This document shows, piece after piece, positions 24,581 through 50,337 of a stretch of DNA of 64,000 nucleotides. The position numbers and the translations under genes are program-made. The DNA is taken from assembly GCF_041206865.1 (NCBI RefSeq), contig NZ_JBGEDP010000001.1, positions 1,054,001-1,118,000 of the forward strand, read 5' to 3'. The DNA is from Mycobacterium sp. HUMS_12744610 (lineage in GTDB: Bacteria; Actinomycetota; Actinomycetes; Mycobacteriales; Mycobacteriaceae). Each line of letters opens with the position of its first letter. The first letter of the stretch is position 1. Below the pieces are notes generated by a model, which did not search any database, was not told where the DNA came from, and saw only the letters and a list, made by a program, of their open reading frames with translations.

Positions 24581-24613
24581 CGGCCCGGCGCGGTGACCCG
24601 TAACAATGGTCGG

Positions 24614-26242: not shown

Positions 26243-26289
26243 CAGCCAATCCTGGCTGGTCAACAGTCGAAAAATTGGGAGACACGCCC
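25318..26289 (-). mobile_element. IS5-family (IS427-type) insertion sequence
   Basis: 972 bp with perfect terminal inverted repeats GGGCGTGTCTCCCAATT. It is flanked by a 2-bp TA duplication (25316-25317 and 26290-26291) inside an original CTAG. It carries a two-frame transposase on the minus strand. It lies between lpqR and the methyltransferase gene, exactly at the lpqR stop codon. Confidence 0.92.
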
Positions 26290-26302
26290 TAGGGGGCGCA
26301 CG

Positions 26303-29561: not shown

Positions 29562-31139
29562 ATGGACAACGAGACTCAGACCCCATCGGGCATACCGCTG
29601 CGGCCCGTGTACGGGCCGGAGGACAGGACCGCGGAACCTGCGCCGCCCGGACAGTTTCCGTTCACGCGGGGCAATTTCGCGTCGGGCTATCGGGGCAAGC
29701 TGTGGACGTTTCGCCAGTACTCGGGCTTCGGCACCGCCGAGGAGTCCAACCGCCGCTACCGATACCTGCTCGAGCAGGGCGGGACCGGGCTGTCGGTGGC
29801 TCTCGATCTGCCCACCCAGTGCGGATACGACTCCGATGATCCCGAGTTCGGGGAGGAGGTGGGCCGGGTCGGCGTCGCGGTGGACACCCTGGCCGACTTC
29901 GAGATCCTCTTCGACGGCATCCCGCTGGACAAGCTCAGCACGAGCATGACGATCAACGGCACCGCCGCCATCCTGCTGGCCTTCTACGTCGCCGCGGCCG
30001 AGAAGAAGGGCATCCCGCGGGCCAAGTTGACCGGGACCATCCAGAACGACATCCTCAAGGAGTACGCCTCGCGCGGCACCTGGATCTGGCCGCCGGAGCC
30101 CTCGCTGCGGCTGATCGCCGACACGATCGAGTTCTGCGCGGCCGAAGTGCCGCGTTTCAACGCGATTTCGGTGGCCGGGGCGCATTTCCGCGACGCCGGC
30201 GCCAACGCGGTGCAGGAGATGGCGTTCACCCTGGCCGACGGTGTGACCTATTGCGACACCGTGGTGGCCCGCGGCCGGATGAGTATCGACCAGTTCGCGC
30301 CGCAGATCTCGTTCTTCTTCTACACCCACGGCGACTTCTTCGAGGAGGTCGCCAAATACCGTGCGGGACGGCGCCGTTGGGCCACGATCGTGCGGGAGCG
30401 TTACGGGGCGGCCACCGACAAGGCGTCGATGTTCCGGTTCGGCTGCGTGTGCGGCGGCGCGTCGCTGTATGGCCCGCAGGCGCGCAACAACGTCGTGCGC
30501 GTGGCCTACGAGGCGATGGCGGCGGTGCTCGGCGGGGTGCAGTCGATGTTCACCGCGGCCTGGGACGAGCCGTTCGCGCTGCCCACCGAGGAGTCCACCA
30601 CGCTGGCGTTGCGCACCCAGCAGATCCTGGCCTACGAGACCGGGGTGGCCAGCGTGGCCGACCCGCTGGGCGGCTCCTACTTCGTCGAGGCGCTCACCGA
30701 TGCGACCGAGGCGCGCATCGTGGAGATCATGGACGACCTGGAACGCCACGGCGGCATGGTGGCCGCGATCGAGGACGGCTACCTTCAGGGCCTGATCGCC
30801 GACGAGGCCTTCCGGACCCATCAGGACATCGAGGCCGGCACCCGCCCCGTCGTCGGGGTCAACCGCTTCGTCTCCGAGGAGCCCGAACCCGACGTCATCA
30901 CCTACGAACTCGACGCCGAGGGCCGCGACCTGCAGCTCAAGCGGCTCTCCAAGGTGAAGGCCGAAAGGGACTCCGCCGCAGCGCAATCGGCGCTGGCGGA
31001 ACTGTCACGCGCCGCGGAGGGCACCGACAACCTGATGCACAAGCTGATCGACTGCGCCAACGCCTACTGCACCGTCGGCGAGATGGTCTCCGCGCTCAAA
31101 GCGGTGTGGGGCGAGTTCGCACAGCCGGTGGTGTTCTAG
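29562..31139 (+). CDS. B12-dependent acyl-CoA mutase, large (substrate-binding) subunit, divergent
   Basis: 525 residues from ATG 29562. A longer open frame to 29058 runs through the divergent SDR and is rejected. It is a methylmalonyl-CoA mutase-type TIM barrel of the two-subunit kind (as in isobutyryl- and 2-hydroxyisobutyryl-CoA mutases), with [11 protein letters not shown] and [11 protein letters not shown]. Tyr53 (RQY) and Arg183 (PSLR) occupy positions that hold the carboxylate-recognising Tyr89 and Arg207 in methylmalonyl-CoA mutase. The usual GYH has become GAH (Ala207-His208). The usual HTQT/HSQT-SG block has become GCVCGG (294-299), and the QSLHTN block has become QSMFTAAW (Phe330-Trp334). 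These changes argue for an unusual substrate. The small subunit gene begins at the very next base. Confidence 0.92.
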
Positions 31140-31565
31140 ATGGCGGTTCGGATTCTGGTGGCCAAGCCCGGCCTGGACGGACACGATCGCGGTGCCAAGA
31201 TCGTCGCGCGCACCCTGCGCGACGCAGGCTTCGAGGTCATCTACACCGGCATCCGGCAACGCATCGAGGACATCGCCTCCATCGCCGTCCAAGAAGACGT
31301 CGCCGTCGTGGGTCTGAGCATCCTCTCGGGTGCACACCTGGCGCTGACCACCCGCACCATCGAGGCCCTGCGCGCCGCCGATGCCGCCGACATCGCCGTC
31401 GTCGTCGGCGGCACCATCCCCCACGCCGACGTCGACAAACTACTGGCCGCCGGCGCCGCCGCGGTCTTCCCCACCGGCACACCGCTGGACGTACTGGTCC
31501 GCGACATCCGCGCCCTGACTGGAACCCCCCAACCCGCATCGGAGGAATCGTGCGCGTCGGAGTGA
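31140..31565 (+). CDS. B12-binding small subunit of the acyl-CoA mutase
   Basis: 141 residues. Cobalamin-binding motif DGHDRG (Asp13, His15, Gly18) near the N terminus, then LSILSGAH and VVGGTIP, the standard B12-binding Rossmann-like domain of acyl-CoA mutases. The His supplies the lower cobalt ligand. It starts immediately after the large-subunit stop and overlaps the LLM oxidoreductase start by 16 bp, so the three are translationally coupled. A MeaB-type GTPase that would load and protect the cofactor is encoded at 49447-50337. Confidence 0.95.
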   Translation: MAVRILVAKPGLDGHDRGAKIVARTLRDAGFEVIYTGIRQRIEDIASIAVQEDVAVVGLSILSGAHLALTTRTIEALRAADAADIAVVVGGTIPHADVDKLLAAGAAAVFPTGTPLDVLVRDIRALTGTPQPASEESCASE

Positions 31566-32506
31566 TGATCGGTGCCGAGCGCGGCGACATGGCCCGCAAG
31601 GTGCACAAGCTGGTCTCCGATATCGAATGGGCCGAGTCCGCGGGCCTGGACACGGCGTGGATGCCGCAGGTGCCCGACGACTTCGACTGCCTGACCATGG
31701 TGTCGCTGATGGCCGCGCACAGCTCGCGCATCGAACTGGGGACCGCGGTGGTGCCGCTGCAGGCCCAGCATCCGATCGCCCTTGCCCGCCAGGCGCTCTC
31801 GACGCACGCGGTCGCCGGCGGACGGCTGGCGCTGGGTGTCGGACCGTCGCATCACTGGATCGTCCGCGACATGCTCGGCCTGCCGTATGAGAAGCCGGCC
31901 GCCTACACCCGCGACTACCTACAGGTGCTGGCCGCCGCCACCGCCGGGCCGGGACCGGTTGACGTGGAGAACGATTCGTTCACGGTGCACAATCCGACGG
32001 TGCTTGCGGCCGATACCCCGATGCCGGTGCTGGTCGCCGCGCTGGGTCCGGTGATGCTGCAGATCGCGGGCGAACTGGCCGACGGCACCGTCTTGTGGAT
32101 GGCCGACGAACGCGCGATCGGCGAGCACATCGCGCCGAAGATCACCAAGGCCGCCGCGGACGCCGGGCGTCCCGCGCCGCGGATCGTCGCGGGAATACCG
32201 GTAACCCTTTGCGCACCTTCGCAAGTCGACGAGGCCAAGGAGCGGGCCAACCGCATCCTCGGCGAGGCCGAGGTGTCGCCCAACTACCAGCGCCTGCTCG
32301 ACCGCGGCGACGCCCGCGATGTCGGCGACCTGTGCGCGGCCGGCGACTCCGAACAGATCCTGGCTCGCATGCGCCGCTTCGCCGACGCCGGTGTGACCGA
32401 CCTGTCGGTGCGCCTGTTGCCGATCGGCGCCGACCGCGACGAACTGGTCGCCTCCAAACGGCGCACCCGCGAGATGATCGCCGCTCTCGCAACGGAGCTG
32501 CGGTGA
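31550..32506 (+). CDS. LLM-class F420-dependent oxidoreductase
   Basis: 318 residues from GTG 31550, with GGAGGA directly upstream. It has the luciferase-like TIM-barrel pattern of F420-dependent enzymes: AESAGLDTAWMPQV, SSRIELGTAVVPLQ, HPIALARQALS, GGRLALGVGPSHH and AGELADGTVLWM. The operon position, sandwiched between the mutase and a CoA-transferase-like gene, suggests redox chemistry on the same substrate, for example double-bond reduction or alcohol oxidation with F420. It overlaps the mutase small subunit and, by 4 bp, the next gene. Substrate unknown. Confidence 0.9.
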   Translation: MRVGVMIGAERGDMARKVHKLVSDIEWAESAGLDTAWMPQVPDDFDCLTMVSLMAAHSSRIELGTAVVPLQAQHPIALARQALSTHAVAGGRLALGVGPSHHWIVRDMLGLPYEKPAAYTRDYLQVLAAATAGPGPVDVENDSFTVHNPTVLAADTPMPVLVAALGPVMLQIAGELADGTVLWMADERAIGEHIAPKITKAAADAGRPAPRIVAGIPVTLCAPSQVDEAKERANRILGEAEVSPNYQRLLDRGDARDVGDLCAAGDSEQILARMRRFADAGVTDLSVRLLPIGADRDELVASKRRTREMIAALATELR

Positions 32507-33546
32507 CGCGGGACGGTTCCCAGGGCCCGCTTATGGGGGTTCGCATCCTCGAGGTCGGCACCATGCTGGCCGGCCCGTACGCCACCATGCTGCTCGCCGA
32601 CCTCGGGGCCGAGGTCACCAAGATCGAACCCCGCGGCGGCGAGATCTCCCGCGGCGTGGGCCCCAGCTACTTCGCCAGCCTCAACCGCAACAAGTCCAGC
32701 ATCTGCCTGGACCTGAATTCCGATGCGGGCCAACAACGGCTGGGCGAGCTGGTGGCCGACGCCCACGCGCTGCTGGTGAACCTCAAGCCGTCGGCCATTC
32801 GCCGGCTGGGGCTCACCTACGAGGCGTTGCGGCGCCACAACGAGCGGATCGTGTGCGTGGCGATCACCGGCTTCGGGCTGCACGGCGGCGACGACCCGGC
32901 GTTCGATTACGTGGTCCAGGCCTCCACCGGTATCGCCGCCCTGACGGGCGACCCCGACGGGCCTCCCACGCTGCCCGGCTACTCCTCGGCGGACAACTCC
33001 ACCGGCATGTGCGCGGCGCTGGGCCTGCTGGCCAAGATCGTCTCCGGCACCGGCGGGCAGGTGGACGTGTCGCTGCGCGACGTGATGTTCTCGCAGCTGA
33101 ACTACCACGCCGCGGCCTACCTCAACGACGGCGTGGAGCCGCGGCGGCGGCCGTACGGCGCGCACTCGTATTACGTGCCCGCCCAGCTCTTCCCGACCGC
33201 CGAGGGATATCTGGCGCTGTTCGTCACGCACGACGGCTTCTGGAAGTCCTTCGCCGCCGAGGCGGGTATCGGGGGCTTCGAGACGATGGCCGAACGGGTC
33301 GAGCGGCGCGACGAGGTGCTCGCCGTCGTCACCGCGATGCTGGCGACCGACACCGCCGTCGGGTGGGAGCGGCGCCTGCGGCCCCTCGGGGTGCCGGCGG
33401 CGGCCGTCCGGACGTTGCCCGAGGCGCTCGATGCGACCCCGGAAGTGGTTGTGGCCGCGGGCGATTTCCGCCTCGTCGCCGGCCCGATCCACGTGTCCGG
33501 TTACGAGCCGCAGTATCGCCCGCCGCCTGTGTTGCCCGAGGGCTGA
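32503..33546 (+). CDS. CaiB/BaiF (class III) CoA transferase-like protein
   Basis: 347 residues from GTG 32503, overlapping the upstream stop as GTGA. Family features are AGPYATMLLADLGAEVTKIEP, SRGVGPSYFASLNRNKSSICLDL, and an Asp-containing SSADNSTGM segment near the expected catalytic Asp. Class III transferases move CoA between acids, and some act as racemases (the Amacr type). In this operon it may supply the acyl-CoA substrate to the mutase or epimerise an alpha-methyl centre. At about 350 residues it is in the shorter racemase-like range, so epimerase function is a real alternative. Confidence 0.88.
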   Translation: MTRDGSQGPLMGVRILEVGTMLAGPYATMLLADLGAEVTKIEPRGGEISRGVGPSYFASLNRNKSSICLDLNSDAGQQRLGELVADAHALLVNLKPSAIRRLGLTYEALRRHNERIVCVAITGFGLHGGDDPAFDYVVQASTGIAALTGDPDGPPTLPGYSSADNSTGMCAALGLLAKIVSGTGGQVDVSLRDVMFSQLNYHAAAYLNDGVEPRRRPYGAHSYYVPAQLFPTAEGYLALFVTHDGFWKSFAAEAGIGGFETMAERVERRDEVLAVVTAMLATDTAVGWERRLRPLGVPAAAVRTLPEALDATPEVVVAAGDFRLVAGPIHVSGYEPQYRPPPVLPEG

Positions 33547-34326
33547 ATCGGCGCCGCCCTCCGTACGGCCCGCCCGGGCTCAGAACGGCGAGCCCGTGAG
33601 GTGCGCCTCGGCGAGCTTGCGGAACGCCGCCACCAACCGGCTCCGGTCCCCGGCGCGCGTGGCGAGCACCACGTGGCAGGGCTCGACGCCCCGCAACGGG
33701 ACGGTGATGATGTCGGGCCGCAGGGTGTTGACGCGTAAATCGGGCACAACGGCGACCGCCTGCCCGGAGGCGATCAGCTCGAATTTGTCCTCGAGCGCGT
33801 CGATGAACGGTCCATCGGGCGCCCGGCGTCCGTCGGGCCGGGGATCGATGCGCCAGAAGGCACTCCACAGCGTGTCGGAGTCGCGAACCCGGGGCATCGG
33901 TTCGTCGGCGATGTCGTCGAGGGTGACGAATTCCCTCCCCGCGAGCCGGTGATCGACCGACATGGCCAGCACCCGGGGCTCGTCGTAGAGGATGATCACG
34001 TGCAGCCCGTCGGTAGGGAACGGGAGCCGGGTCACCACCGCGTCCACCCGATGCCCGAGCAACGCGTCCAGGGCCTGGTCCCAATCCAGATGGGACACTT
34101 GCACATCGGCGTCGGGGTGTTCGCGGCGCATCTCGCGCACCGCGCGGGTGACGATCATCCCGGTCGTGTAGCCGATCGCGATACGGCTCGGCTGGGCGGC
34201 GGCCCGGGCCTGGGCGGCGGCCTGCGTGGCCGAGCGCAGCAAGGCCTTGGCCCGCGGCAGGAACACCTCCCCGGCCTCCGTCAGCCGGGTGCCTTGCGGC
34301 GTGCGATCCAGCAGTCGAACGCCCAG

Positions 34327-38194: not shown

Positions 38195-38617
38195 ATGAAC
38201 CCCCAGCGAGTCGCCGACGAAATCGAAATCGCCGCCCTGCTCCATAGATACGCCCGGGCCGTCGATTCCAAGGACTGGGCTTTGTATCAGTCGGTGTTCA
38301 CCGACGATGCGCACATCGACTACTCGTCGGCGGGCGCCGCCGCGGGCCCCCGCGACGAGGTGGCCGAGTGGCTGGCGGAGGGCTTCGGCGCGATTCCGAT
38401 GTCTATGCACTACATCACCAACGTGGAAGTCCTTGCACTCGAGGGTGATACGGCGACAGTGCGGGCGATGTTCTACAACCCGATGCAGTTGCCGGGCATG
38501 GCGGAGCTCAGCTATTGCGGCGGCTACTACCACCACGAGTTGGTCCGCACGGCCGACGGATGGCGCAGTCGAAACCTGCGCGAGGAGAACGTGTGGTTCG
38601 TCAACGCGCCGGGCTAG
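38195..38617 (+). CDS. SnoaL-like / NTF2-fold protein
   Basis: 140 residues from ATG 38195 (GTG 38192 also possible). It has the NTF2-like pattern of small cone-shaped proteins: IAALLHRYARAVDSKDWALYQSVFTDDA with conserved Tyr/Arg/Asp positions, a central MHYITNVEV, and a C-terminal GWRSRNLREENVWF. Members include ketosteroid isomerase- and scytalone dehydratase-like enzymes, so isomerisation or dehydration is possible. Its end overlaps the convergent amidohydrolase end by 4 bp. Confidence 0.85.
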   Translation: MNPQRVADEIEIAALLHRYARAVDSKDWALYQSVFTDDAHIDYSSAGAAAGPRDEVAEWLAEGFGAIPMSMHYITNVEVLALEGDTATVRAMFYNPMQLPGMAELSYCGGYYHHELVRTADGWRSRNLREENVWFVNAPG

Positions 38618-39875
38618 GTCAGGCCGGCGACCCGCTTCTGCTCGTAGCGCCGAGCCCACTCGGCGCGTGAGCGGATCGACACGTCGACGTCTACCGCCTT
38701 GGCGCGCAAAGCCTTCACCGTCGCCCGCTCGCGGGCCGTGCGGGCGAACGGGTCCCAGCCGAAGAACCGGCAGGCGTTGGCCCAGGTGATCTTGTCGATG
38801 TCGGTGTCGTCGGCGCCGGCGGCGGTCAGCTCGGCCAGCACCTGTTCGGGCGCATCGGGCCAGAAGCAATCCGAGTGCGGGTAGTCGCACTCCCAGGCGA
38901 TGATGTCGATGCCGATCTCGTGGCGCAGCCGCAACGAGGTCTTGTCGGTGACGTAGCACGCCAGCGAATGCTCGCGGAACACCTCGCTGGGCAGCTTGTC
39001 GCCGAAGTCGCGGCGCAGCCATTTCTGGTTGGTGTAGTGACGGTCGCTGCGGTCCAGGTAGAACGGGATCCAGCCGATGCCGCCCTCGGAGAACGCGAAC
39101 TTCAGGTCGGGATACTTGCGCATCGCCGGGCCCCACAGCAGGTCCTGGGCGCACATCGCCGAAACCTGGGTGGCCAGGATGATCAGATTGTCGATCGGCG
39201 CGTCGGGCGCCATGCTGATCGCGCCGAAGCCGGTGCCGATGTGCAGGCACATCACCACGTTCTGCTCGGACAGGGCCGAGAAGACCGAGCCCCAGTAGTC
39301 GTCGTCGTGGTAGCTCGGAAGCCCTTCCAGGTGCGGCAGTTCGGGCATGGTGACCGCGCGGCAGCCCTTGGCCGCCACCCGGCGGATCTCGGCGCACATG
39401 GCCTGCGGGCTCCATGTCGGCAGGATGGCGATCGGGATGAACCGGTCCGGATACGAGCCGGCCCATTCGTCGATGTGCCAGTCGTTGTAGGCCGACACCA
39501 TCGCCAGGGTGGCCTCCTCGCGGTGCATGTTGAGGTGGCGCGCGGAGAACCCGGTGAACGTCGGGAAGCACATCGAGGCCAGGATGCCGTTGCGGTTCAT
39601 GTCGCGCACGCGCTCGTGGACGTCGTAGACCCCGGGGCGCATCTCGGCGAAACCGGCCGGGTCACGGCCCCATTCCTCGGCGGGCCACGACACCACGGCG
39701 TTCAGGCCGCTGACGCCCTGGGGCCGGCCCTGGTACACCCACTGGTCGACGCCCTTGTCGTCGGTCACGACGACCGGGGCCTCGGCACGGTACTTGCCGG
39801 GCACGTGAGGAACATGTCCGGCGGCTCGACGACGTGGTCATCGATGCTCACCAGGATCAGGTCATCGGCGTTCAT
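38614..39875 (-). pseudogene. Metal-dependent amidohydrolase with a frameshift near its N terminus
   Basis: The main frame (39804-38614, up to 396 residues) has the TIM-barrel amidohydrolase/ACMSD-type pattern, including VVMCLHIGTGFG, KFAFSEGGIGWIP and WECDYPHSDCFWP. The natural start is ATG 39875, 19 bp behind the ferredoxin gene. The first 23 or so codons include the metal-binding DDH and VVEPPDMF, but they are in a different frame. The shift is near 39803-39808, where about four bases seem to be missing between DMFL and VPGKYRA. Initiation at the internal GTG 39804 would give a protein lacking the N-terminal metal ligands. Either the gene is dead or there is a sequence error. Confidence 0.75.
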
Positions 39876-39894
39876 GAACTGCCGCCTCTCCGGA

Positions 39895-40230
39895 TTATTC
39901 GTAGTGGACCGTGACCGACGGTGTGTCGGGCACGCCCTGGCAGGTCAGGATGTACCCCTCGGCCACCTCGTCGTCCTCGAGCGCGTCGTTGACCCGCATG
40001 GTCGCGTGGCCCTCGACGAGCCTGGCCATGCAGGTGCCGCAGTTGCCGGCCTCGCAACTGAACGGCGGCTCGAGGCCGGCTCGCCGCGCGCTTTCCAGCA
40101 GCGTCTCGCCGGGGACCCGCGGCACCGAAACCTTCTTGCGGTCGAGGTGGATCGTCACCGTGCCCGGCTCGGCACCGTTGGATGCTGGATTCGTCACTGT
40201 GTCCTCGATGATCGCGGTGACCGTCGCCAT
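39895..40230 (-). CDS. Plant-type 2Fe-2S ferredoxin
   Basis: 111 residues from ATG 40230. An N-terminal extension of about 30 residues precedes a 2Fe-2S domain with SCEAGNCGTCMARL (three cluster Cys) and ILTCQG (the fourth). It resembles the C-terminal domain of KshB/PaaE-type reductases but stands alone, so it needs a separate reductase. It heads a minus-strand pair with the amidohydrolase and shares a palindromic promoter with the divergent acyl-CoA ligase operon. A ferredoxin here implies an oxygenase step, though none is encoded in the island. Confidence 0.9.
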   Translation of the reverse strand: MATVTAIIEDTVTNPASNGAEPGTVTIHLDRKKVSVPRVPGETLLESARRAGLEPPFSCEAGNCGTCMARLVEGHATMRVNDALEDDEVAEGYILTCQGVPDTPSVTVHYE

Positions 40231-40264
40231 GACCGCCCCTCCCGTACTTGCGTTCTTCAGTATA

Positions 40265-40279
40265 GAGAATACTATTCTC
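40265..40279. promoter_or_regulatory. Shared palindromic operator, site A
   Basis: GAGAATACTATTCTC (6-3-6 inverted repeat) lies between the divergent ferredoxin (start 40230) and acyl-CoA ligase (start 40332) genes. On the minus strand it abuts a TATACT hexamer well placed as a -10 box for the ferredoxin. Nearly the same sequence recurs at 47271-47285 and 48259-48273, consensus GAGAATA-NN-RTTCTC. Confidence 0.75.
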
Positions 40280-40331
40280 GTCAGCCGATAGGATCCTCTC
40301 TCCGACGGTCGGACTGCTGGAAGGAACGGAC

Positions 40332-41747
40332 GTGACCGAGCCGGCAGCGCTCGTGTTCGAGGAGCGGCGCTTCAGCGCGCCGCAACTCGACGCGCTGGCC
40401 GCCGGGCTGGCCGCCACACTCGAGAAAAGGGGTGTCGCCGCTGGCCAGCGGGTCGCGGTGATGTCATCCAATCGGCCGGAATTCGTCGCCGCGCTGTTGG
40501 CGATCTGGCGGCTGGGTGCTACCGCGGTGCTCGTGAGTCCCGCGTGGAAACGCGACGAGGTCGACCACGCACTCGCGCTGGCCGGCCCGGCGCACGCCGT
40601 CGGTGACCATCCCGTGCTGGCCGGCCTGATGCCGATGCTGCATCTGGACGAACCGATCACCCCGACCGAGCCGGTCGCCCGGGCGCTGCCGCCCCCCGCC
40701 GACGCGGTCCTGGTCTTCAGCTCGGGCACCACCGGCCTGCCGAAGGCCGTCCGGCACACCCACGCCGCGCTGGACGAGGCCGTCGGGCATTGGCGCCGGG
40801 CGCTGCGGCTGACCGGCCGCGACCGCATCCAGGTCGTCACGCCGCCGTCCCACATCCTCGGCCTGCTCAACATCGTCACCGCGCTGCGGGCCGGTACCCA
40901 GATCCGGTTGCATCCGCGATTCGACGTCGACACCATGCTGTACCACATCGAAAACGACCGCATCACAGTGGAAATGGCGGTCGCTCCCATCGCGCTGGCG
41001 ATCGCCTCGCACCCCCGGCTCGAGTCCTACGACCTGTCGTCGCTGCGCTTCATCATGTGGGGCGCCACGCCGGTGACCGTCAGCGTCGCCGAAACGGTGA
41101 CCCGACGCACCGGCGTGGGCTGGGTGCCGGCCTACGGCACGACCGAACTGCCCGTCATCGCCTGCAATCCGGTCGACGGGGCCCGCCTCGACACCGTCGG
41201 GCGGCCGGTGCCCGGGGTGGAAGTTCGGGTGGTCTCGATGGACACCGGCGAGCCGGTCTGCCCGGGGGAGGTCGGCGAAATCCAGGCCCGCTCCGCCTCG
41301 TTGATGGCCGGGTACCTGCCGCCGGAGGCGACCGCCGAGGCGTTTCACGACGGCTGGTACCGGACGGGTGACGTCGGCTGGCTTGACACCGGCGGTTGGC
41401 TGCGGATCACCGACCGTCTCAAGGAGATGATCAAGGTGCGCGGCTTCCAGGTCGCCCCCGCCGAGGTCGAGACGGTGCTGCACGGTCATCCGGCCGTCAA
41501 GGACTGCGCGGTGTTCGGTGTTCCGGACGGGATCAACGGCGAAGCCATCGTCGCCGCCGTCGCGGCGTGCGCCCCCATAGATACGGCGGCGGTCGCCGCC
41601 GAACTCACCGACCGGGTCGAGCAGCGGCTAGCGTCCTACAAACGCGTGAGCCGCGTCGTGTTCGTGCCCGATATCCCGCGCCTGCCCTCGGGCAAGGTAC
41701 TGCGCCGAGTTCTCAAGGAGCGCCATGGATGTACGTCTGACAGCTGA
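40332..41747 (+). CDS. Acyl-CoA synthetase (FadD-type)
   Basis: 471 residues from GTG 40332, with GGAAGGA upstream. AMP-binding enzyme with P-loop VFSSGTTGLPKAV, A5 region AYGTTELPV, YRTGDVGW, and C-terminal Lys in PRLPSGKVLRRVL. It is at the short end for FadD proteins (missing some N-terminal sequence), and nothing indicates the FAAL-specific insertion, so CoA ligation is expected. It starts the fadD-ACAD-ACAD-hydratase operon and overlaps the first dehydrogenase by 23 bp. Confidence 0.92.
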   Translation: MTEPAALVFEERRFSAPQLDALAAGLAATLEKRGVAAGQRVAVMSSNRPEFVAALLAIWRLGATAVLVSPAWKRDEVDHALALAGPAHAVGDHPVLAGLMPMLHLDEPITPTEPVARALPPPADAVLVFSSGTTGLPKAVRHTHAALDEAVGHWRRALRLTGRDRIQVVTPPSHILGLLNIVTALRAGTQIRLHPRFDVDTMLYHIENDRITVEMAVAPIALAIASHPRLESYDLSSLRFIMWGATPVTVSVAETVTRRTGVGWVPAYGTTELPVIACNPVDGARLDTVGRPVPGVEVRVVSMDTGEPVCPGEVGEIQARSASLMAGYLPPEATAEAFHDGWYRTGDVGWLDTGGWLRITDRLKEMIKVRGFQVAPAEVETVLHGHPAVKDCAVFGVPDGINGEAIVAAVAACAPIDTAAVAAELTDRVEQRLASYKRVSRVVFVPDIPRLPSGKVLRRVLKERHGCTSDS

Positions 41748-42630
41748 ACAGCAGCAACTGCGCGACGCCGCCGCCAAGCTGGCCGACGACCTCGGGCCGG
41801 GGTCGGTCCAGGATCTCGACGACGATGGGCGAATCTCCCGCCTGGACAGGCAGGTTGCGGCGACCGGATGGCGCGCGCTGCGCTCCGACGGCGCGTCCGG
41901 TGTCGAGGTGGCCATCGTCGCCGAGGAATTCGGGCGCCGCCTGCTCGACGCGCCCTTCCTCGGGCCGGTGCTGGCCGACGATCTGGCCCGCCACGTCGGT
42001 GCCGACAGTGGGGGAGCCACGGTAGGTGGCGACGGATGGGCCGTCGACGCGCGGGGATGTGAACGCGCCCTTATGCTCTCGAGCGGCACCGTATTGGTGG
42101 CGGAGGCCGGCGAGTCCCGCACCGGTGCGGATCTGACCCGGGCCGAAGCGAGTCTGACGGGGGAGCCGACTGTGCTCGGCGAGATCTCCGACGACGATGC
42201 CGCACGATGGCTGGCGCTCGCGCTGGCCACCACGTCGGCCGATCTGGTCGGAATCGCCCGGGGCGCGCACGGCGTCTCCTGCGACTACGCGAAAATCCGC
42301 GAACAATACGGCAAGGCGATCGGGTCCTATCAGGCCGTCGCGCACCTGCTGGCCGAAAGCCTCGCCCTGATCGAAGGTTCGGTCAGCATCTCCCGACATG
42401 CCGCGTGGGGGGTCGACGAACTGCCGCCGACCGAAGCCATCCGGGCCGCCCGGATCGCCAAGGTCTACTGCGCCCGAGCCGCCCGCACCGTCTGCGAGAC
42501 CGCGATCCAGGTGCACGGCGGCATCGGCAATACCTGGGACTGCCTGGTGCACGTCTACCTGCGCCGGGCGCTGACCTCCACCGAACTGTGGCCCGTCGCG
42601 CTGAAGGAGATCGACTTTGGACTTTCGTGA
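41725..42630 (+). CDS. Acyl-CoA dehydrogenase, first subunit of a pair
   Basis: 301 residues, shorter than a complete acyl-CoA dehydrogenase (about 380). It retains C-terminal elements REQYGKAIGSYQAVAHLLAE and VHGGIGNTWD but has a weak middle domain. It overlaps the ligase gene upstream and the second dehydrogenase gene downstream (14 bp). Mycobacteria often make alpha2beta2 dehydrogenases from two unlike half-active chains (as in ChsE-type enzymes of sterol side-chain breakdown). This gene pair has that look. Confidence 0.88.
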   Translation: MDVRLTAEQQQLRDAAAKLADDLGPGSVQDLDDDGRISRLDRQVAATGWRALRSDGASGVEVAIVAEEFGRRLLDAPFLGPVLADDLARHVGADSGGATVGGDGWAVDARGCERALMLSSGTVLVAEAGESRTGADLTRAEASLTGEPTVLGEISDDDAARWLALALATTSADLVGIARGAHGVSCDYAKIREQYGKAIGSYQAVAHLLAESLALIEGSVSISRHAAWGVDELPPTEAIRAARIAKVYCARAARTVCETAIQVHGGIGNTWDCLVHVYLRRALTSTELWPVALKEIDFGLS

Positions 42631-43699
42631 CTCACCCGACGAGGCGGTCTTCCGCGAACGGCTGCGAAGCTGGCTCTCGTTGCACGCCAGAGATTTTCCG
42701 AGCTCCGGTGACGAGTACTGGGCCCGCCAGGCCCAGTGGCACCAGGCCCTCTACCACGAGGGCTTCTTCGGGCTGTCGTTTCCCCGCGAGTACGGCGGTC
42801 AGGATCTGCCGCCGGTCTACGACGTCATCGTGGACGAAGAGCTGGCCCGGGCCGGCGCCCCGCCGCGCCCCAGCGTGGGCTATCTCATCTACGGCATCGG
42901 CAGGCACGCGAACGACGAGCTGCGTCGGCGATTCCTGCCGGGCATCATCGACGGGACCGAGCGGTGGTGCCAGGGGTTCAGTGAGCCCGGCGCCGGCTCG
43001 GACCTGGCCTCGCTCACGACCACCGCACGCCGCGAAGGCGACAACTACGTCATCGACGGGCACAAGATCTGGACCAGCTACTCCGACGTCGCCGACTGGT
43101 GCCTGCTGCTGGCTCGCACCGACCCCGAGGCCAAACGCCACCGGGGCCTGTCGGCGTTCATCCTCGAGATGAAACAGCCCGGGGTGCAACAGCGTCCGCT
43201 GCGCATGATCAGTGGGGTCACCAACGAGTTCGGGCAGGTCTTCTTCGACGGTGCGACGGTGCCGGTGGACCGGATGGTCGGCGCGCCCGGCGACGGCTGG
43301 GCGGTCGCCATGACCGTCGTGGGTCACGAGCGCGAACCGTCCACGCTCGGCTACGCCGCCAGGTACGGCAAGCTGGTGCGAAACCTTTTGGCGCGCAGCG
43401 GTGATTCGGTGTCCGAAGAGGTCGCGTGGGCGGCCGTTCAGTCGGAGATGCTGACCCATCACGTCCGGCGGCGGCTGTCCGAACAGCTGGACGGGGTCTC
43501 GCACGGGCCGGAGGGGTCGCTCGACAAGTTGCTGATGACCTGGGTCGAGCAGTCGGTCGGCCATGCCGCGCTGGCGGTCGCCGGCACCCGCGACCCCGAC
43601 CTGCTCGGCGCCTACCTGTACAGCCGCGCGCAGAGCGTGATGGGCGGGACGTCGCAGATACAGAAGAACATCATCGCTTCACGAATCCTGGGATTGTAG
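42617..43699 (+). CDS. Acyl-CoA dehydrogenase, second subunit of a pair
   Basis: 360 residues from a TTG start at 42617. The TTG is supported by GAAGGAG eight bases upstream and by the sequence MDFRDSPDEAVFRERL, which fits the family N terminus. The FAD/substrate region QGFSEPGAGSDLASL and the C-terminal GGTSQIQKNIIASRILGL are present. It should form a heteromer with the preceding, translationally coupled chain and introduce an alpha,beta double bond into the acyl-CoA made by the ligase. Confidence 0.9.
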   Translation: MDFRDSPDEAVFRERLRSWLSLHARDFPSSGDEYWARQAQWHQALYHEGFFGLSFPREYGGQDLPPVYDVIVDEELARAGAPPRPSVGYLIYGIGRHANDELRRRFLPGIIDGTERWCQGFSEPGAGSDLASLTTTARREGDNYVIDGHKIWTSYSDVADWCLLLARTDPEAKRHRGLSAFILEMKQPGVQQRPLRMISGVTNEFGQVFFDGATVPVDRMVGAPGDGWAVAMTVVGHEREPSTLGYAARYGKLVRNLLARSGDSVSEEVAWAAVQSEMLTHHVRRRLSEQLDGVSHGPEGSLDKLLMTWVEQSVGHAALAVAGTRDPDLLGAYLYSRAQSVMGGTSQIQKNIIASRILGL

Positions 43700-43762: not shown

Positions 43763-44530
43763 GTGTACGACATGCCCGACGAGATCGAGGTCCGTGCCGA
43801 AGGCGCGTTGCGGATCATCACGCTGAACCGGCCGGAGTCTCTCAACTCGGTCAACGACAACCTGCACGTCGGCCTCGCGCGGCTGTGGCAGCGGTTGACC
43901 GACGACGCCTCGGCCCGCGCGGCGGTGCTCACCGGGGCGGGCCGGGCGTTCTCGGCCGGCGGCGACTTCGCGTATCTCAAGGAGCTCTCGGAGGACGCCG
44001 CCCTGCGCGCCAAGACCATCCGCGACGGGCGCGAGATCGTGCTGGGGATGGCGCGGTGCCGAATCCCGGTGGTGGCGGCGGTCAACGGGCCCGCCGTTGG
44101 CCTGGGCTGCAGCCTGGTCGCGTTGAGCGACATCGTCTACATGGCCGAGGACGCCTACCTTGCTGACCCCCATGTGCAGGTGGGCCTGGTGGCCGCGGAC
44201 GGCGGGCCGCTCACCTGGCCGCTGCACATCAGCCTGCTGCTCGCCAAGGAATACGCGTTGACGGGCACCAGGATTCGCGCCGCGCGGGCAGTGGAACTCG
44301 GCCTGGCCAATCACGTGGTGGCCGATCCCGTCGGCGAGGCGGTGACCGCCGCCAAGAAGATCCTGGAGCTGCCCCAGCAGGCGGTCGAGAGCACCAAGCG
44401 GGTGCTCAACATCCACTTGGAGCGCGCTGTGCTGGCGAGCCTGGACTATGCGCTCTCCGCCGAGCACCAGTCGTTCACGACCGACGACTTCCGCTCGATC
44501 GTCACCAAGCTGGCGGCGGGCAAGAACTAG
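43763..44530 (+). CDS. Enoyl-CoA hydratase/isomerase family protein
   Basis: 255 residues from GTG 43763 (GAAGGGG upstream). Crotonase fold: NRPESLNSVN, oxyanion-hole segments GAGRAFSAGGDF and NGPAVGLGCSLVAL. The region expected to hold the two catalytic Glu residues reads DAYLADPHVQVGLVAADGG; the first position appears to be Asp and the second Ala/Asp. Standard hydratase activity is therefore not certain and an isomerase or hydrolase role is possible. It is the last gene of the ligase operon. Its TAG stop is part of the CTAG target of the following IS1182-family element and is preserved. Confidence 0.87.
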   Translation: MYDMPDEIEVRAEGALRIITLNRPESLNSVNDNLHVGLARLWQRLTDDASARAAVLTGAGRAFSAGGDFAYLKELSEDAALRAKTIRDGREIVLGMARCRIPVVAAVNGPAVGLGCSLVALSDIVYMAEDAYLADPHVQVGLVAADGGPLTWPLHISLLLAKEYALTGTRIRAARAVELGLANHVVADPVGEAVTAAKKILELPQQAVESTKRVLNIHLERAVLASLDYALSAEHQSFTTDDFRSIVTKLAAGKN

Positions 44531-46471: not shown

Positions 46472-47233
46472 TCACTTGGGCGGGAATCTCAGCGCGCCGT
46501 CCAACCGGATGACTTCGCCGTTGAGGTAATCGTTTTCGCAGATGCTGTGCACCAGCGTGGCGTACTCGGCGGGCCGGCCCATCCGTTTGGGGAAGGGCAC
46601 CTGCGGGCCCCAGTACGCCTCCAGCTGATCGCCGTTCTTGCCGTAGGCGGGTGTCAGGAACGTGCCGGGGGCGATGGTGACCACCCGGATGCCCAGCGGC
46701 GACAGGTCGCGCGCGGCGACCAGGGTCATGCCCAGCACGCCGCCCTTGGCCGCCGCGTACGGCAGTTGGCCGATCTGGCCCTCGTAACCGGCGATCGACG
46801 CCGTGTTGACGATGACGCCGCGCGTGCCGTCGACCGGCTCCTGTCGCGCCATCGCGGCCGCGGACAGGCGCATGACGTTGAACACCGCGGTCAGGTAGAA
46901 CTCGATCGTCGTCTTGAAGCCGTCCAGGTCCAGCGGCGAGCCGTCCTTGCCGACGAGACGGCCCCCGCTCGCCGGGCCGCCGTGGGTGTCGACCGAGATG
47001 CGCAGCGGGCCCAGCGATTCCGCCTCGGCGATCGCCGCCTGGAGGTCGTCGGTGCTGGTGGCGTCGGTGCGCGCGTAGCGCACCCCGAGCTCGCCGGCCA
47101 GCTCCTTGCCCTTCTTGTCGGCCAGATCGGCGACGACGACCCGCGCGCCCGCGGCGTGCAGCCGGCGGACGGTGGCCTCCCCGAGGCCGCCGGCGCCGCC
47201 GACGACGATCGCGGAGCTACCTTCGAGTTGCAT
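46472..47233 (-). CDS. SDR, 3-hydroxyacyl-CoA dehydrogenase type-2-like
   Basis: 253 residues from ATG 47233, with GGAAAGGAAAAGG upstream. Rossmann site VVGGAGGLGEATVRRL (with VGG in place of TGG), NTASIAGYEGQIGQLPYAAAK holding Ser, Tyr and Lys, and IAPGTFLTPAY. The sequence style matches short-chain 3-hydroxyacyl-CoA dehydrogenases of the HSD17B10 type. It therefore fits the step after the hydratase in beta-oxidation. It carries the shared palindrome at 47271-47285 in its promoter, linking it to the ligase operon and the thiolase. Confidence 0.88.
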   Translation of the reverse strand: MQLEGSSAIVVGGAGGLGEATVRRLHAAGARVVVADLADKKGKELAGELGVRYARTDATSTDDLQAAIAEAESLGPLRISVDTHGGPASGGRLVGKDGSPLDLDGFKTTIEFYLTAVFNVMRLSAAAMARQEPVDGTRGVIVNTASIAGYEGQIGQLPYAAAKGGVLGMTLVAARDLSPLGIRVVTIAPGTFLTPAYGKNGDQLEAYWGPQVPFPKRMGRPAEYATLVHSICENDYLNGEVIRLDGALRFPPK

Positions 47234-47305: not shown

Positions 47306-48175
47306 TCAGCCGTCGTGGCGGCGCAGGAATTCGCGCATCACCCGGTCGAACCGGTCGGGCTCCTCGATGAACGGCATGTGGGAGCTGGATTCGAACAGCT
47401 CGAACTGCGAGCCGGCGATGCGCCGGTGCACCTCCCGCATGTGGTCCGGTGCGCACTCGTCGAACCTGCCCGCCAGGACCAGGGTCGGCAGGGCGATCGC
47501 GGAGAGGCGGTCCAGCACGTCCCAGTCGCGGATGGTCCCGACGATGTGGAAGTCGCTGGCGCCGAACATCGTCTCGAAAATCTCGGCGCCCATGCCCGCG
47601 AAGGCGTCCAGCAGCTCGGTGGGCCAGGGCCGGACGCGACACAAATAGGTTTCGTTCCAGGTGCGGATCGCCGCCTGGTATTCGGCCGAAGACGTGGTGC
47701 CGGCGGCCTCGTGGCGTGCGATGGCGGATTGGGTGTCCCGGTCCAGCTCGGACTTCAACCGGGCCACCATCTCCGAAAACCGCGGTATGGAGGCGATGCT
47801 GTTCGAGATGGTGAGGCTGACCGCCCCGGAGCTCACGTCGAGCACGTACTGCTGCGCCAGCATCCCGCCCCAGGAGTTGCCGAAAATGTGGAAGCCGTTC
47901 AGGCCGAGCGCCCGCACCACCGAATCCATCTCGGCCACCGAGCGTTCCATCGTCCACAGGGCGGTGTTCGACGGGCGCCCGGAGCGCCCGCACCCGAGTT
48001 GGTCCCAGAAGACGATCTCCCGCTCGTCGGCCAGGCGTTCCAGCGACCTCAGGTAGTCGTGCGGCAGCCCGGGGCCGCCGTGGACCACCAGCACGGGACG
48101 GCCCGCACCGCCCCCGGTCCGTTTGAACCACACGTTGCCGCCCGGGACCGCGATCAGGCCTTCGTGCGCCGTCAT
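47306..48175 (-). CDS. pip: Proline iminopeptidase-type alpha/beta hydrolase (Rv0840c-like)
   Basis: 289 residues. The peptidase S33 pattern is complete: HGGPGLPHDYL (oxyanion), FWDQLGCGRSGRPS, nucleophile Ser in GNSWGGMLAQQYVLD, Asp in GRFDECAPDH and His in SSSHMPFIEEP. The sequence is close to what I recall of M. tuberculosis Pip (Rv0840c), including AIRTWNETYLCR and ETMFGASDF. Family members release N-terminal proline or other residues from peptides. It belongs to the ancestral backbone rather than the catabolic island, yet its promoter is shared with the thiolase operon and contains the island palindrome. Confidence 0.9.
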   Translation of the reverse strand: MTAHEGLIAVPGGNVWFKRTGGGAGRPVLVVHGGPGLPHDYLRSLERLADEREIVFWDQLGCGRSGRPSNTALWTMERSVAEMDSVVRALGLNGFHIFGNSWGGMLAQQYVLDVSSGAVSLTISNSIASIPRFSEMVARLKSELDRDTQSAIARHEAAGTTSSAEYQAAIRTWNETYLCRVRPWPTELLDAFAGMGAEIFETMFGASDFHIVGTIRDWDVLDRLSAIALPTLVLAGRFDECAPDHMREVHRRIAGSQFELFESSSHMPFIEEPDRFDRVMREFLRRHDG

Positions 48176-48258
48176 GTCCCCTTCCTATCTCAAGCCCCAG
48201 CAGGGCGGCGAGCCGAGCGCGACGGCGGCCCACCCCGCAACTGCTACTCTCGCAGAGA

Positions 48259-48273
48259 GAGAATACCGTTCTC
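48259..48273. promoter_or_regulatory. Shared palindromic operator, site C
   Basis: GAGAATACCGTTCTC in the divergent promoter between pip (start 48175) and the thiolase gene (start 48300), 26 bp upstream of the latter. Matches the consensus of sites at 40265 and 47271. Confidence 0.75.
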
Positions 48274-48299
48274 ACGTCTGCCGACCTGGAGAAGACCCC

Positions 48300-49439
48300 G
48301 TGCCCGAAGCCGTCATCGTGTCCGCCCTGCGCACTCCCATCGGCACCGCCCGCAAGGGCACGCTGCGCGACACCAGCGCGTTCGACCTCGCCCATCACGT
48401 GGTGTGCGAGGCGGCCAAGGACCTGGATCCCGCACGGGTGGACGACGTGATCCTCGGCGAGGGCCTCTACGGCGGCGGCGTCATCGCCCGCCACGCGGCG
48501 ATCACGGCGGGTCTGTCCCACGTACCGGGCCTGGCCAACAACCGGCACTGCGCGGCCGGACAGGCCGCGGTGCAGAGCGCGGCGGCAAGCGTGCGCGCCG
48601 GCATGGACCAACTCGTCATCGCCGGTGGGGTGAATTCGGCCTCCACCTCCCCGCGGTCGCGGATCCCGGTCGACGGAGAGTGGGTCGACTGGTTCCCGCC
48701 GACCCACCCGGACCGCCCCGACGCCCCGAACATGGACATGTCCATCACCGTCGGCTGGAACGCCGCGGTCAAGGCCGGCGTGAGCCGCGAGGAGATGGAC
48801 GCCTGGGCGCTGCGCTCGCACCGCAACGCGATCGCCGCGATCGACGAGGGCCGGTTCACCGAGGAGATCGTCCCGATCGAGACGCCGCACGGGTTGTTCT
48901 CCGTCGACGAACACCCCCGCCGCGACACCACGATGGAGAAGCTGGCCGCGCTCAAACCGCTGCATCCCGAGATCGAGGGTTTCTCGATCACCGCCGGCAA
49001 CGCCTGCGGCGCCAACGACGGGGCCGCGGTGCTGACGATCGCCAGCCACGAGCTCGGGCTGCCCGCGCTGGCCACCGTGCGCTCGTGGGCGTCGGTCGGC
49101 GTCGATCCCGCGATCACCGGCTTGGCGCCGGTCGATGCGATCCCGAAAGCACTTGCCCGGGCAGGGCTTTCGATAACGGATGTGGACCTGTTCGAAATCA
49201 ACGAGGCCTTCGCGGCGATGTGCGTGGCCACCGTCAAGTTGCTCGAGCTGGACCCGGGCACCGTCAACGTCAGCGGCAGCGGCTGCTCGCTGGGGCATCC
49301 GGTGGCGGCGACCGGCGCCAGGATGCTGGTCACCCTCGTGCACGAATTGCGGCGCCGCGGCGGCGGAATCGGTGTGGCGGCGATGTGCGCGGGCGGCGGC
49401 ATGGGTTCGGCGACGGTGATCGAGGTCCCGGCGCCATAA
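48300..49439 (+). CDS. Thiolase (acetyl-CoA acyltransferase)
   Basis: 379 residues from GTG 48300, with GGAG upstream. Complete thiolase catalytic set: Cys84 in RHCAAGQ, His333 in GHPVAATGAR and Cys363 in MCAGGGMG, plus NEAFAAM. It would cleave the 3-ketoacyl-CoA formed by the preceding enzymes. It is co-directional with the MeaB-type GTPase, 7 bp apart, so beta-oxidation and cobalamin-enzyme maintenance share one transcript. Confidence 0.93.
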   Translation: MPEAVIVSALRTPIGTARKGTLRDTSAFDLAHHVVCEAAKDLDPARVDDVILGEGLYGGGVIARHAAITAGLSHVPGLANNRHCAAGQAAVQSAAASVRAGMDQLVIAGGVNSASTSPRSRIPVDGEWVDWFPPTHPDRPDAPNMDMSITVGWNAAVKAGVSREEMDAWALRSHRNAIAAIDEGRFTEEIVPIETPHGLFSVDEHPRRDTTMEKLAALKPLHPEIEGFSITAGNACGANDGAAVLTIASHELGLPALATVRSWASVGVDPAITGLAPVDAIPKALARAGLSITDVDLFEINEAFAAMCVATVKLLELDPGTVNVSGSGCSLGHPVAATGARMLVTLVHELRRRGGGIGVAAMCAGGGMGSATVIEVPAP

Positions 49440-49446
49440 TGCACAA

Positions 49447-50337
49447 GTGAGCATCACCGAGCTGATCGCGAGCGCGCGCAACGGATCTCCGCGCGCCGCG
49501 GGTCGTCTGCTCAGCCTCGTCGAGAGCGAGCAGCGCGACGAGGTGATGGCGAGCATCGGCCCCCCGTCGGCCGCGCACCCGGTCCCCGTCATAGGCGTCA
49601 CCGGGCCGCCGGGTGCGGGCAAGTCGACGACGATCGCCGCCCTGGTCGGCGCCTACCGGGAACGCGGCTCCCGAGTCGCCGTGCTGGCCGTGGACCCGTC
49701 CTCGCCGTTCAGCGGTGGTGCGCTGCTGGGCGACCGCATCCGGATGGCCGCGCACATCAACGACTCCGGCGTGTTGATCCGCTCGGTGGCCACCCGCGGC
49801 CACCTCGGGGGGCTGGCCGCCGCCATCCCGGCTGCGCTGCGGTTGCTCGCCGCCATCGGTTACGACGTAGTGCTGCTGGAGACCGTCGGGGTGGGGCAGT
49901 CCGAGATCGAGATCGCCGCCGTCGCCGACCCTGCCGTCGTCATCCTCAATCCCGGTGCGGGCGACGCCGTGCAGGCCGCCAAGGCCGGCGTGCTGGAAGT
50001 CGCCGACATCGTGGTCGTCAACAAGGCCGACCGCGAGGGTGCCGACCAGACGGTGCGGGACCTGCGCGCCGAGACCGACGCCCCGATCGTGAGCCTGGTC
50101 GCCGCCCGCGGCGAGGGAATCGCGAATCTGCTGGCCGCCGTCGACGACCATCGCCGCAGCGACAACCGCGCCCGCCGGCTGGCCCGGGCGAGGGCGCAGA
50201 TCCTGTCGCTGGCGCAGTCGCGCCTGCGGGCCCGGCCGGAACTCGAGCGGCTGGCGGAATCGGTGGTCGACGGGCACGACGATCCCTACACCGCCGCCGA
50301 GAAACTGCTGTCATCGTCCACTGGACGCGACGACTGA
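49447..50337 (+). CDS. MeaB/ArgK-type G3E GTPase, acyl-CoA mutase chaperone
   Basis: 296 residues from GTG 49447. Walker A GVTGPPGAGKST (residues 50-61), DPSSPFSGGALLGDRIRM, Walker B/switch ETVGVGQSEIEIA, and VVNKAD for guanine recognition. MeaB proteins gate adenosylcobalamin loading into, and protect, B12-dependent acyl-CoA mutases. Mycobacteria normally have a MeaB beside mutAB elsewhere; this copy is in the catabolic island that contains the divergent mutase at 29562-31565. I infer that it serves that mutase. It follows the thiolase by 7 bp. A strong palindrome lies just downstream. Confidence 0.92.
   Translation: MSITELIASARNGSPRAAGRLLSLVESEQRDEVMASIGPPSAAHPVPVIGVTGPPGAGKSTTIAALVGAYRERGSRVAVLAVDPSSPFSGGALLGDRIRMAAHINDSGVLIRSVATRGHLGGLAAAIPAALRLLAAIGYDVVLLETVGVGQSEIEIAAVADPAVVILNPGAGDAVQAAKAGVLEVADIVVVNKADREGADQTVRDLRAETDAPIVSLVAARGEGIANLLAAVDDHRRSDNRARRLARARAQILSLAQSRLRARPELERLAESVVDGHDDPYTAAEKLLSSSTGRDD

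Follow-up and report, generated by a model that had tools for sequence, protein, structure and literature searches.

A divergent two-subunit B12-dependent acyl-CoA mutase encoded in a Mycobacterium genome

Introduction

To our knowledge, only a few kinds of B12-dependent acyl-CoA mutase have been distinguished, namely methylmalonyl-CoA mutase (MCM), ICM, ECM, 2-hydroxyisobutyryl-CoA mutase (HCM) and pivalyl-CoA mutase, and every newly found kind opened a carbon pathway or provided a biocatalyst. In anaerobic alkylsuccinate degradation a mutase-plus-decarboxylase step has been proposed. YgfD of the E. coli sbm operon is, we assume, the counterpart of MeaB. This operon (sbm-ygfD-ygfG-ygfH) combines a mutase with a CoA-transferase and a decarboxylase of the crotonase type, and succinate is decarboxylated to propionate (PMC3850637). 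In the synthesis of actinonin and matlystatin, the ActD / MatB-MatQ mutase was proposed to form 2-pentylsuccinyl-CoA from hexylmalonyl-CoA (PMC5719088). In M. marinum, McmA2 (MMAR_4797/4798) is a split-domain mutase that is encoded between LpqR and FadD16 and is absent from M. tuberculosis, and its suggested role is to supply methylmalonyl-CoA from which a lipid or secondary metabolite is made (PMC4428469, Young et al. 2015). In two further papers, mcmA2b of M. ulcerans is listed among the genes with low pN-pS (PMC2736377) and MSMEG_4881 is named as a methylmalonyl-CoA mutase gene (PMC10066036).

Here we describe a mutase locus of Mycobacterium sp. HUMS_12744610. It lies in a stretch of 64,000 nucleotides that was analysed as a whole and is referred to as the window.

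Results

A sequence-only reading of this DNA had described two abutting genes that together form a complete mutase. The coordinates were confirmed and both products passed the cut-offs of their domain models:

29562..31139, plus strand: mutL, large TIM-barrel subunit of the GAH/GxVxGG/FTAAW clade, 525 aa (profile match, alignment, tree)
31140..31565, plus strand: mutS, small cobalamin-binding subunit with the KPGLDGHDRG motif, 141 aa (no gap to mutL)

MutL scored 655 bits against the NCBIfam mutase N-terminal domain model (cut-off 304) and mutS 149 bits against the C-terminal domain model (cut-off 57). With a TIM-barrel subunit and a DxHxxG cobalamin subunit both present, the pair encodes a complete B12-dependent mutase of the two-subunit form of the AdoCbl-dependent acyl-CoA mutase superfamily, and the cobalamin motif of mutS is retained across phyla. 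Among solved structures mutL matched best to 4r3u, a 2-hydroxyisobutyryl-CoA mutase (507 bits), followed by human MCM (475 bits); aligned identities were 48% to 4r3u, 45% to human MUT and 44% to 1REQ. The nearest database match is a protein of M. helveticum (97%). A separate MCM pair sits elsewhere in the window's genome.

The active site was compared by alignment with 1REQ, 4R3U and human MUT. In MCM a Tyr/Arg pair presumably holds the substrate carboxylate, the Arg being that of the 'VRN' motif (Arg207), and we take His328, Gln330 and Asn366 to lie close to the adenosyl group or the substrate. The three conserved blocks that had been noted as changed are all truly changed: mutL has GAH at 206-208, GCVCGG at 294-299 and QSMFTAAW from 327, not 328 as first given, where the references have GYH, then HSQTSG, HCQTAA and HCQTSG (1REQ, 4R3U and human MUT, respectively), and QSLHTN. 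A207 takes the place of the Tyr of GYH, G294-C-V296-C stands where MCM has His-x-Gln-Thr, and F330-T-A332-A333-W lies opposite HTNSL of 1REQ. At the positions of MCM His328, Gln330 and Asn366, the clade that shares these blocks with mutL (the GAH clade) has Gly, Val and Ala/Cys. Q327, S328, D335 and E336 are the same in mutL as in the references. Also retained are Q161, Y53, R171 and H208, the last of which presumably corresponds to the catalytic His. Tyr53 and Arg183 had been named as the kept carboxylate pair of MCM. Y53 does align with the MCM Tyr, but Arg183 is the wrong residue, a generic Arg position that is Arg in HCM too; the counterpart is R171, which aligns with the VRN Arg, is kept in mutL and is Gln in HCM. 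Loss of the bulky Tyr would plausibly give a wider substrate pocket; a structure prediction from 33 sequences (mean pLDDT 46.7, pTM 0.35) was too poor for a pocket comparison.

Conservation of these residues was followed in 360 relatives, the best 120 of a capped 8000 scored in each of three database searches. Y53, R171, A207, H208, V296, Q327, A333 and E336 were invariant among them (360/360), G294 and Q161 were each found in 359 and F330 in 358, and the position of MCM Asn366 was Ala or Cys, with Thr once. In a mixed set of 432 rows, repeats included, A207-H208-G294 was present in 391 and not in 41. All 391 clade rows keep Y53 and R171, and 389 carry the six-residue signature A207-H208-G294-V296-F330-A333. 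Within the other 41 rows Ala at 207 occurred only in L182, which has Gln at 208, and Gly at 294 only in L173, an ECM-type reference. As the signature residues are fixed in hundreds of relatives, chance and a decayed or dead gene copy were rejected as sources of the changes. In the comparison set the Y/R pair is carried by MCM and ECM-type rows; the two positions are I/Q in HCM rows and F/Q in IcmF rows. Uncharacterised GYH mutases retain Y/R as well, and the pair is therefore no proof of a dicarboxylate.

Two trees of acyl-CoA mutase large subunits were calculated, with 37 and 46 rows. Rhiz_L174, a broken reading, was left out of both, and nine further rows were left out of the second (the long-branched L168b and L182, the odd L193 and near-duplicates). 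In the first tree the signature rows were united by a branch with support 100/99. In the second, the 15 signature rows stood alone at 97/94 and at 100/99 once L194 joins, and MCM (10 rows), ECM-type (4), IcmF (2) and HCM (2) rows formed groups of their own at 100/100. L194, the sister row of the GAH clade, has the Gly-rich block FKYGGGGSG, and its placement is unsure because of its branch length of 2.04. In both trees mutL belongs to a clade apart from the MCM, HCM, IcmF and ECM-type references. The description as a divergent two-subunit mutase is thereby upheld; the enzyme is no lone oddity, and is one member of a large clade that spans two phyla.

Ordinary MCM membership was rejected, as mutL lies outside the 100/100 MCM group and has the GYH, HxQT and QSLHTN blocks replaced; all MCM rows with readable blocks carry these three, the beta-chain row L003 being unreadable at two. 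Against the full-length MCM equivalog mutL reached 574 of the 876 bits needed, a score that a lone large subunit also loses for its length. Membership of HCM or IcmF was rejected as well, mutL having Y/R instead of Ile/Gln or Phe/Gln and grouping apart from both (the IcmF reference L208 scored 1776 bits, cut-off 1500). Joining ECM-type and GAH rows in one clade was not rejected (p-AU 0.114); the best tree separates them, with a warning of long branches. MutL and mutS are split subunits, unlike ECM with its single chain and fused B12 domain. The ECM-type reference L173 adjoins a crotonyl-CoA carboxylase/reductase gene (ccr; 619 bits, cut-off 379), and its ccr protein had no match anywhere in the window. 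Three of four further ECM-type rows have Gly at 294 and LPAWNE, and the fourth has LPTWNE. The changed blocks are fixed in the GAH clade, but the Gly at the His328 position and the A-W or T-W are common to ECM-type references, and these two 'lost' features are therefore not unique to it. No characterised enzyme with the GAH-clade signature was found among solved structures or in the literature searched, and a search of open-licence PMC yielded no paper on the substrate of the clade.

The GAH clade was found in Actinomycetota and in three classes of Pseudomonadota. In the large genome searches only a few best candidates were scored per genome. A relative of at least 82% identity was detected in 12 of 396 genomes of the window's phylum sample, the next drop being to 54%, and a relative at E 1e-195 or better in 46 of 394 genomes of the class sample (76-100% identity), where 25 of the 26 genomes of the window's genus were positive, its own genome counted. 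The family sample contained 26 genomes with a mutL relative out of 151. The same signature was present on plasmid records of Paraburkholderia, Diaphorobacter, Sulfitobacter and Marinobacter (54-58% identity), and the database names of relatives add Variovorax, Cupriavidus, Hydrogenophaga and Comamonas. The relatives are mostly named methylmalonyl-CoA mutase (family protein).

The gene neighbourhood of mutL and mutS in the window comprises the following features:

24593-25318: D-Ala-D-Ala dipeptidase (PF01427, 231 bits)
31550..32506, plus strand: LLM-class F420-type oxidoreductase (TIGR03564, F420_MSMEG_4879, 354 bits, cut-off 234; 16-base overlap with mutS)
32503..33546, plus strand: family III CoA-transferase (GTGA overlap with the LLM gene; 54% identity with its counterpart in the Diaphorobacter operon)
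38614..39804, minus strand: amidohydrolase-superfamily protein close to DitZ (PDB 8uyr; 412 bits), a candidate for a pathway role
39895..40230, minus strand: [2Fe-2S] ferredoxin of the conserved cluster (PF00111, 65.7 bits)
40332..41747, plus strand: AMP-forming acyl-CoA ligase, also part of the conserved cluster
41725..42630, plus strand: acyl-CoA dehydrogenase, small partner (IpdE2-like, far under the model's cut-off)
42617..43699, plus strand: acyl-CoA dehydrogenase, large partner
43763..44530, plus strand: beta-oxidation protein of the enoyl-CoA hydratase family (differs by alignment from the mutL-associated crotonase)
46472..47233, minus strand: short-chain dehydrogenase (putative 3-hydroxyacyl-CoA dehydrogenase, judged by its place)
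at 47306: proline iminopeptidase-family gene
48123..49439, plus strand: thiolase of the acetyl-CoA C-acyltransferase family (363 bits, cut-off 240.6; true start probably later)
49447..50337, plus strand: MeaB-type GTPase, candidate cofactor-loading chaperone of the mutase (256 bits, cut-off 240.8)

Because they abut or overlap, the mutL, mutS, LLM and CoA-transferase genes are regarded as one tight operon. In 80 mycobacterial loci mutL was followed by mutS (80/80), the LLM gene (76/76) and the CoA-transferase gene (75/75) wherever the locus reached far enough, and in 14 other actinobacterial loci by mutS in 13/13, the LLM gene in 9/11 and the CoA-transferase gene in 7/10. The CoA-transferase has its best scores with dicarboxylate transferase families, yet far under their cut-offs, and retains the region of the Asp that we take to be catalytic. 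The paired acyl-CoA dehydrogenases match the IpdE2 and pimeloyl-CoA dehydrogenase models, again far under cut-off. Of the 80 mycobacterial loci, 28 had a DitZ-like gene, as did 26 of the 69 that extend over the neighbouring ferredoxin gene; in loci of family f92 a longer ferredoxin-reductase-type protein replaces the ferredoxin. An ORF at 39872-40990, considered as a reductase, is very probably spurious, having no family match and overlapping the ligase gene on the opposite strand; the genuine gene at this place is that of the ferredoxin. A Mce-type transport gene lies further away from this neighbourhood.

LpqR is presumably a D-Ala-D-Ala dipeptidase. On account of the window's dipeptidase gene, its proline iminopeptidase-family gene and the M. 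ulcerans protein P0021, which is 88% identical to mutL and has the full signature, mutL/mutS are very probably the McmA2 ortholog. In the available parts of PMC4428469, PMC2736377 and PMC10066036 no mention of the active-site change or of a two-phylum module was found.

At four proteobacterial loci the gene order is ECH-mutL-mutS-CoA-transferase-MeaB-like GTPase. None of the GTPases reaches the MeaB cut-off of 241 bits, their scores being 199, 222, 229 and 230. An IclR/KdgR-type regulator gene is nearby in three of the four. In three loci the operon is directly followed by genes for transport of the TRAP, TAXI or tripartite-tricarboxylate type; at the Marinobacter locus they lie 5-14 kb away, with transposase genes between. 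None of these four operons contains an LLM gene, which is therefore not part of the core, and no beta-oxidation set adjoins the operon at the four loci. In PLSDB the seven records with a mutase at least 60% identical to the Diaphorobacter protein are also the seven best transferase records, with a transferase identity of at least 58%, compared with 42% in the eighth.

Co-occurrence was assayed in the class sample with a crotonase query from L158 and E-value limits chosen by the analyst. Crotonase was detected in 49 and CoA-transferase in 48 of the 394 genomes; of the mutL genomes, 46/46 had the crotonase (Fisher p 6e-57) and 44/46 the CoA-transferase (p 4e-51), p-values that ignore shared ancestry. 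In the window's genome the crotonase (71% identical) is encoded 126 kb away. It lies near an amidohydrolase, a counterpart of which is found within the family f92 cluster. Crotonase and mutL were on one contig in 17 of 25 same-genus genomes, 79-150 kb apart in 16 of them; in the seventeenth they are separated by 4,852 kb of a roughly 5-Mb contig, a distance that may span the origin. All nine aligned crotonase copies retain one of the two hydratase Glu residues and carry Gln in place of the other, and eight have a WGG motif, as ethylmalonyl-CoA decarboxylase presumably does. Among solved structures the crotonase matches best to hydratases and dehydratases, so that assignment as a decarboxylase is only a guess.

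Three genomes of family f92 (G486, G556 and G682) have the crotonase, LLM, transferase, ligase and dehydrogenase genes, but both mutL and mutS are missing from their clusters. The most similar mutases of these genomes share 46, 45 and 44% identity with that of the window, respectively, the last being the sister row L194. For L184 and L185, which have gene calls, the ligase and LLM genes are direct neighbours. In another genome, G484, a transferase relative occurs, but neither mutL nor the crotonase. These f92 genomes with the cluster and without mutL indicate that the partner enzymes can persist without the mutase: either one pathway branch was lost, or most of the cluster serves a mutase-independent purpose.

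Discussion

Because its active site differs from that of every characterised relative compared, the substrate of the GAH clade probably differs from those identified so far. The reading that we prefer, tentatively and at somewhat less than even confidence, is that mutL/mutS form a mutase that interconverts a substituted succinyl-CoA and a substituted malonyl-CoA, as part of a catabolic module like that of sbm. The Y/R pair, present in MCM and ECM-type rows and not in HCM and IcmF rows, suggests a CoA ester that bears a free carboxylate, and the small residues A207, G294 and A332, which are partly ECM-like, point to a substituent on the acyl group. CoA-transferase, mutase, GTPase and crotonase match the E. 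coli sbm operon in kind, which suggests a mutase step followed by decarboxylation. The family III CoA-transferase, with succinyl-CoA or the product acyl-CoA as possible CoA donor, or else the ligase would convert a (di)carboxylic acid to its CoA thioester, and the MeaB-like GTPase would load the adenosylcobalamin cofactor of the mutase. The mutase would then shift the thioester group between neighbouring carbons, presumably from a substituted succinyl-CoA to a substituted malonyl-CoA or in reverse; Y53 and R171 would grip the free carboxylate, and the space at A207, G294 and A332 could take the substituent of a substrate of this putative class. The co-occurring crotonase may act on the mutase product, probably as a decarboxylase like YgfG after Sbm, and in mycobacteria the resulting acyl-CoA would continue through the adjoining beta-oxidation enzymes. 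Counting against this reading are the f92 genomes that have the cluster and not the mutase, the G484 transferase relative, the distance between crotonase and mutL in genomes of the window's genus, the hydratase and dehydratase relatives of the crotonase, and the Y/R pair of uncharacterised GYH mutases.

The leading alternative, although we consider it unlikely, is that the enzyme rearranges a monocarboxylic acyl-CoA, branched or quaternary, of the pivalyl or isovaleryl type, in the breakdown of terpenoid- or steroid-like compounds. A bulky acyl group would fit the loss of bulky residues, and the mycobacterial surroundings lend themselves to such a role, with a close relative of DitZ (412 bits), a name we associate with diterpenoids, a Mce-type transport gene further off, and paired dehydrogenases that match IpdE2 and pimeloyl-CoA dehydrogenase models far under cut-off. 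However, Y53 and R171 are kept in all 360 listed relatives while HCM and IcmF rows replace both, the DitZ-like gene occurs at only 28 of the 80 loci in mycobacteria, and the proteobacterial operons are found close to small-organic-anion transporters, with no adjoining beta-oxidation set. That the pair is a second methylmalonyl-CoA mutase, making methylmalonyl-CoA for lipid synthesis, is what most database names and the retained Y/R pair would suggest and what PMC4428469 proposes for McmA2; it appears improbable for a genome that already has its own MCM pair and for a protein that misses the full-length MCM cut-off (574 of 876 bits, loss of length contributing) and stays outside a 100/100 MCM group whose readable rows all have GYH, HxQT and QSLHTN. 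It is equally improbable that this B12 enzyme handles its radical differently and catalyses another type of reaction, or that it is inactive and regulatory in the manner of the MCM beta subunit. The idea is prompted by the replacement of MCM His328, Gln330 and Asn366 by Gly, Val and Ala/Cys; against it, H208 and E336 occur in 360/360 and Q161 in 359/360 listed relatives, the cobalamin motif of the small subunit is retained across phyla, the mutase is accompanied by a GTPase of MeaB type or MeaB-like, and ECM-type references are without His328 as well.

The preferred reading, a substituted succinyl-CoA/malonyl-CoA mutase, could be extended further. The GAH clade might be a new kind of B12 mutase for bulky 2-substituted succinyl-CoA/malonyl-CoA, with remade adenosyl and substrate contacts, heading an undescribed aerobic pathway of CoA transfer, radical rearrangement and crotonase decarboxylation in many mycobacteria, other actinobacteria and Burkholderiales; we regard this broader proposal as rather doubtful. 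If true, such a pathway would be an aerobic counterpart of the mutase-plus-decarboxylase step of anaerobic alkylsuccinate degradation. The clade is common, is mostly named methylmalonyl-CoA mutase in databases and is counted as a second MCM in mycobacteria, which bears on models of propionate and B12 metabolism. An active site that is fixed and yet different is a natural test of the residues that set substrate and adenosyl handling, and as the conserved module supplies concrete partner enzymes, the substrate can be sought directly.

Compared with the known systems, MCM, including E. coli Sbm, shares with mutL the fold family, the Y/R carboxylate pair and the catalytic His, and the sbm operon likewise contains a crotonase and a CoA-transferase. 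MCM differs in the GYH, HxQT and QSLHTN blocks, in its separate tree group and in sequence (44-45% identity), and the window's system differs from that of Sbm in having two polypeptides and a family III transferase, YgfH presumably belonging to another transferase family. The ECM/MeaA type (L173) resembles mutL in the Y/R pair, the SRGT motif and the Gly at the His328 position, and the A-W before D-E in the GAH clade resembles the A/T-W before N-E of ECM-type references; unlike mutL, it is a fused single chain of about 40% identity with Tyr before the catalytic His and with Gln330. HCM (4r3u; L169) has the two-subunit layout and gives the best PDB score, but it is only 48% identical, has I/Q for Y/R and retains GYH and HCQTAA, and the stretch examined around L169 holds a MeaB and an AMP-binding gene without a family III transferase. 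Judged by its description in PMC5719088, the ActD reaction is of the kind proposed for mutL/mutS, but it is biosynthetic, and its authors assign the enzyme to the HCM subclass. McmA2 was taken as a methylmalonyl-CoA mutase in PMC4428469, whereas mutL, very probably its ortholog, falls into a separate clade with a divergent active site.

Transposases and other genes around the mutase cluster

Three transposase regions were found inside or adjoining the mutase cluster of the window. The LysR-type gene that adjoins the DDE group 1 region (33580-34266) is readable solely as the ligand-binding part.

16585-19842, minus strand: AMP-binding and NAD_binding_4 protein, carboxylic-acid-reductase-like
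25315-26410: transposase region 1, a pair of overlapping reading frames carrying a domain of IS4/5 type
34445-35845: transposase region 2, DDE group 1 transposase
38614-40230, minus strand: amidohydrolase-superfamily protein with adjoining [2Fe-2S] ferredoxin gene
44684-46426: transposase region 3, IS1182
61723-63339, minus strand: FAD_binding_2 protein

As judged by eye, the FAD_binding_2 protein shows likeness to 3-ketosteroid dehydrogenase.

Mutases at other loci

A Diaphorobacter plasmid harbors a second two-subunit mutase of distinct type together with MeaB and an AMP-binding gene (L168:1768-5061); this mutase carries the motifs RQLIG, VGQHMQQ and QSLHTDGYDE and shares only 38% identity with the window mutase. 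On a Sphingobium plasmid, a highly divergent two-subunit mutase is encoded with a GTPase (L182:1357-4474), in which Ala-Gln occupies the expected Tyr-His position and the Tyr/Arg pair is replaced by Val/Val. The split mutase of L194, the long-branched sister row of the GAH clade, has the blocks FKYGGGGSG and VPAYDE; genes for a GTPase of MeaB type (255 bits) and a member of the ECH family adjoin it (L209:5068-10212). Maybe it represents a further, uncharacterised mutase clade.

Amidohydrolases and a candidate oxygenase system

The crotonase neighborhood in the window's own genome (1207435-1212514; L183:9436-14515) contains an amidohydrolase with 67% identity to one from the mutase cluster of family f92, and another gene adjoining the crotonase is 62% identical to the cytochrome P450 located after mutS in L150. 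The amidohydrolase-superfamily protein of the window matched DitZ (8uyr, 412 bits). Since AibH1H2, a relative from this superfamily, is described in PMC7782822 as a diiron methyl hydroxylase supplied by ferredoxin-type partners, the DitZ-like protein and the adjoining [2Fe-2S] ferredoxin may be components of an oxygenase system.
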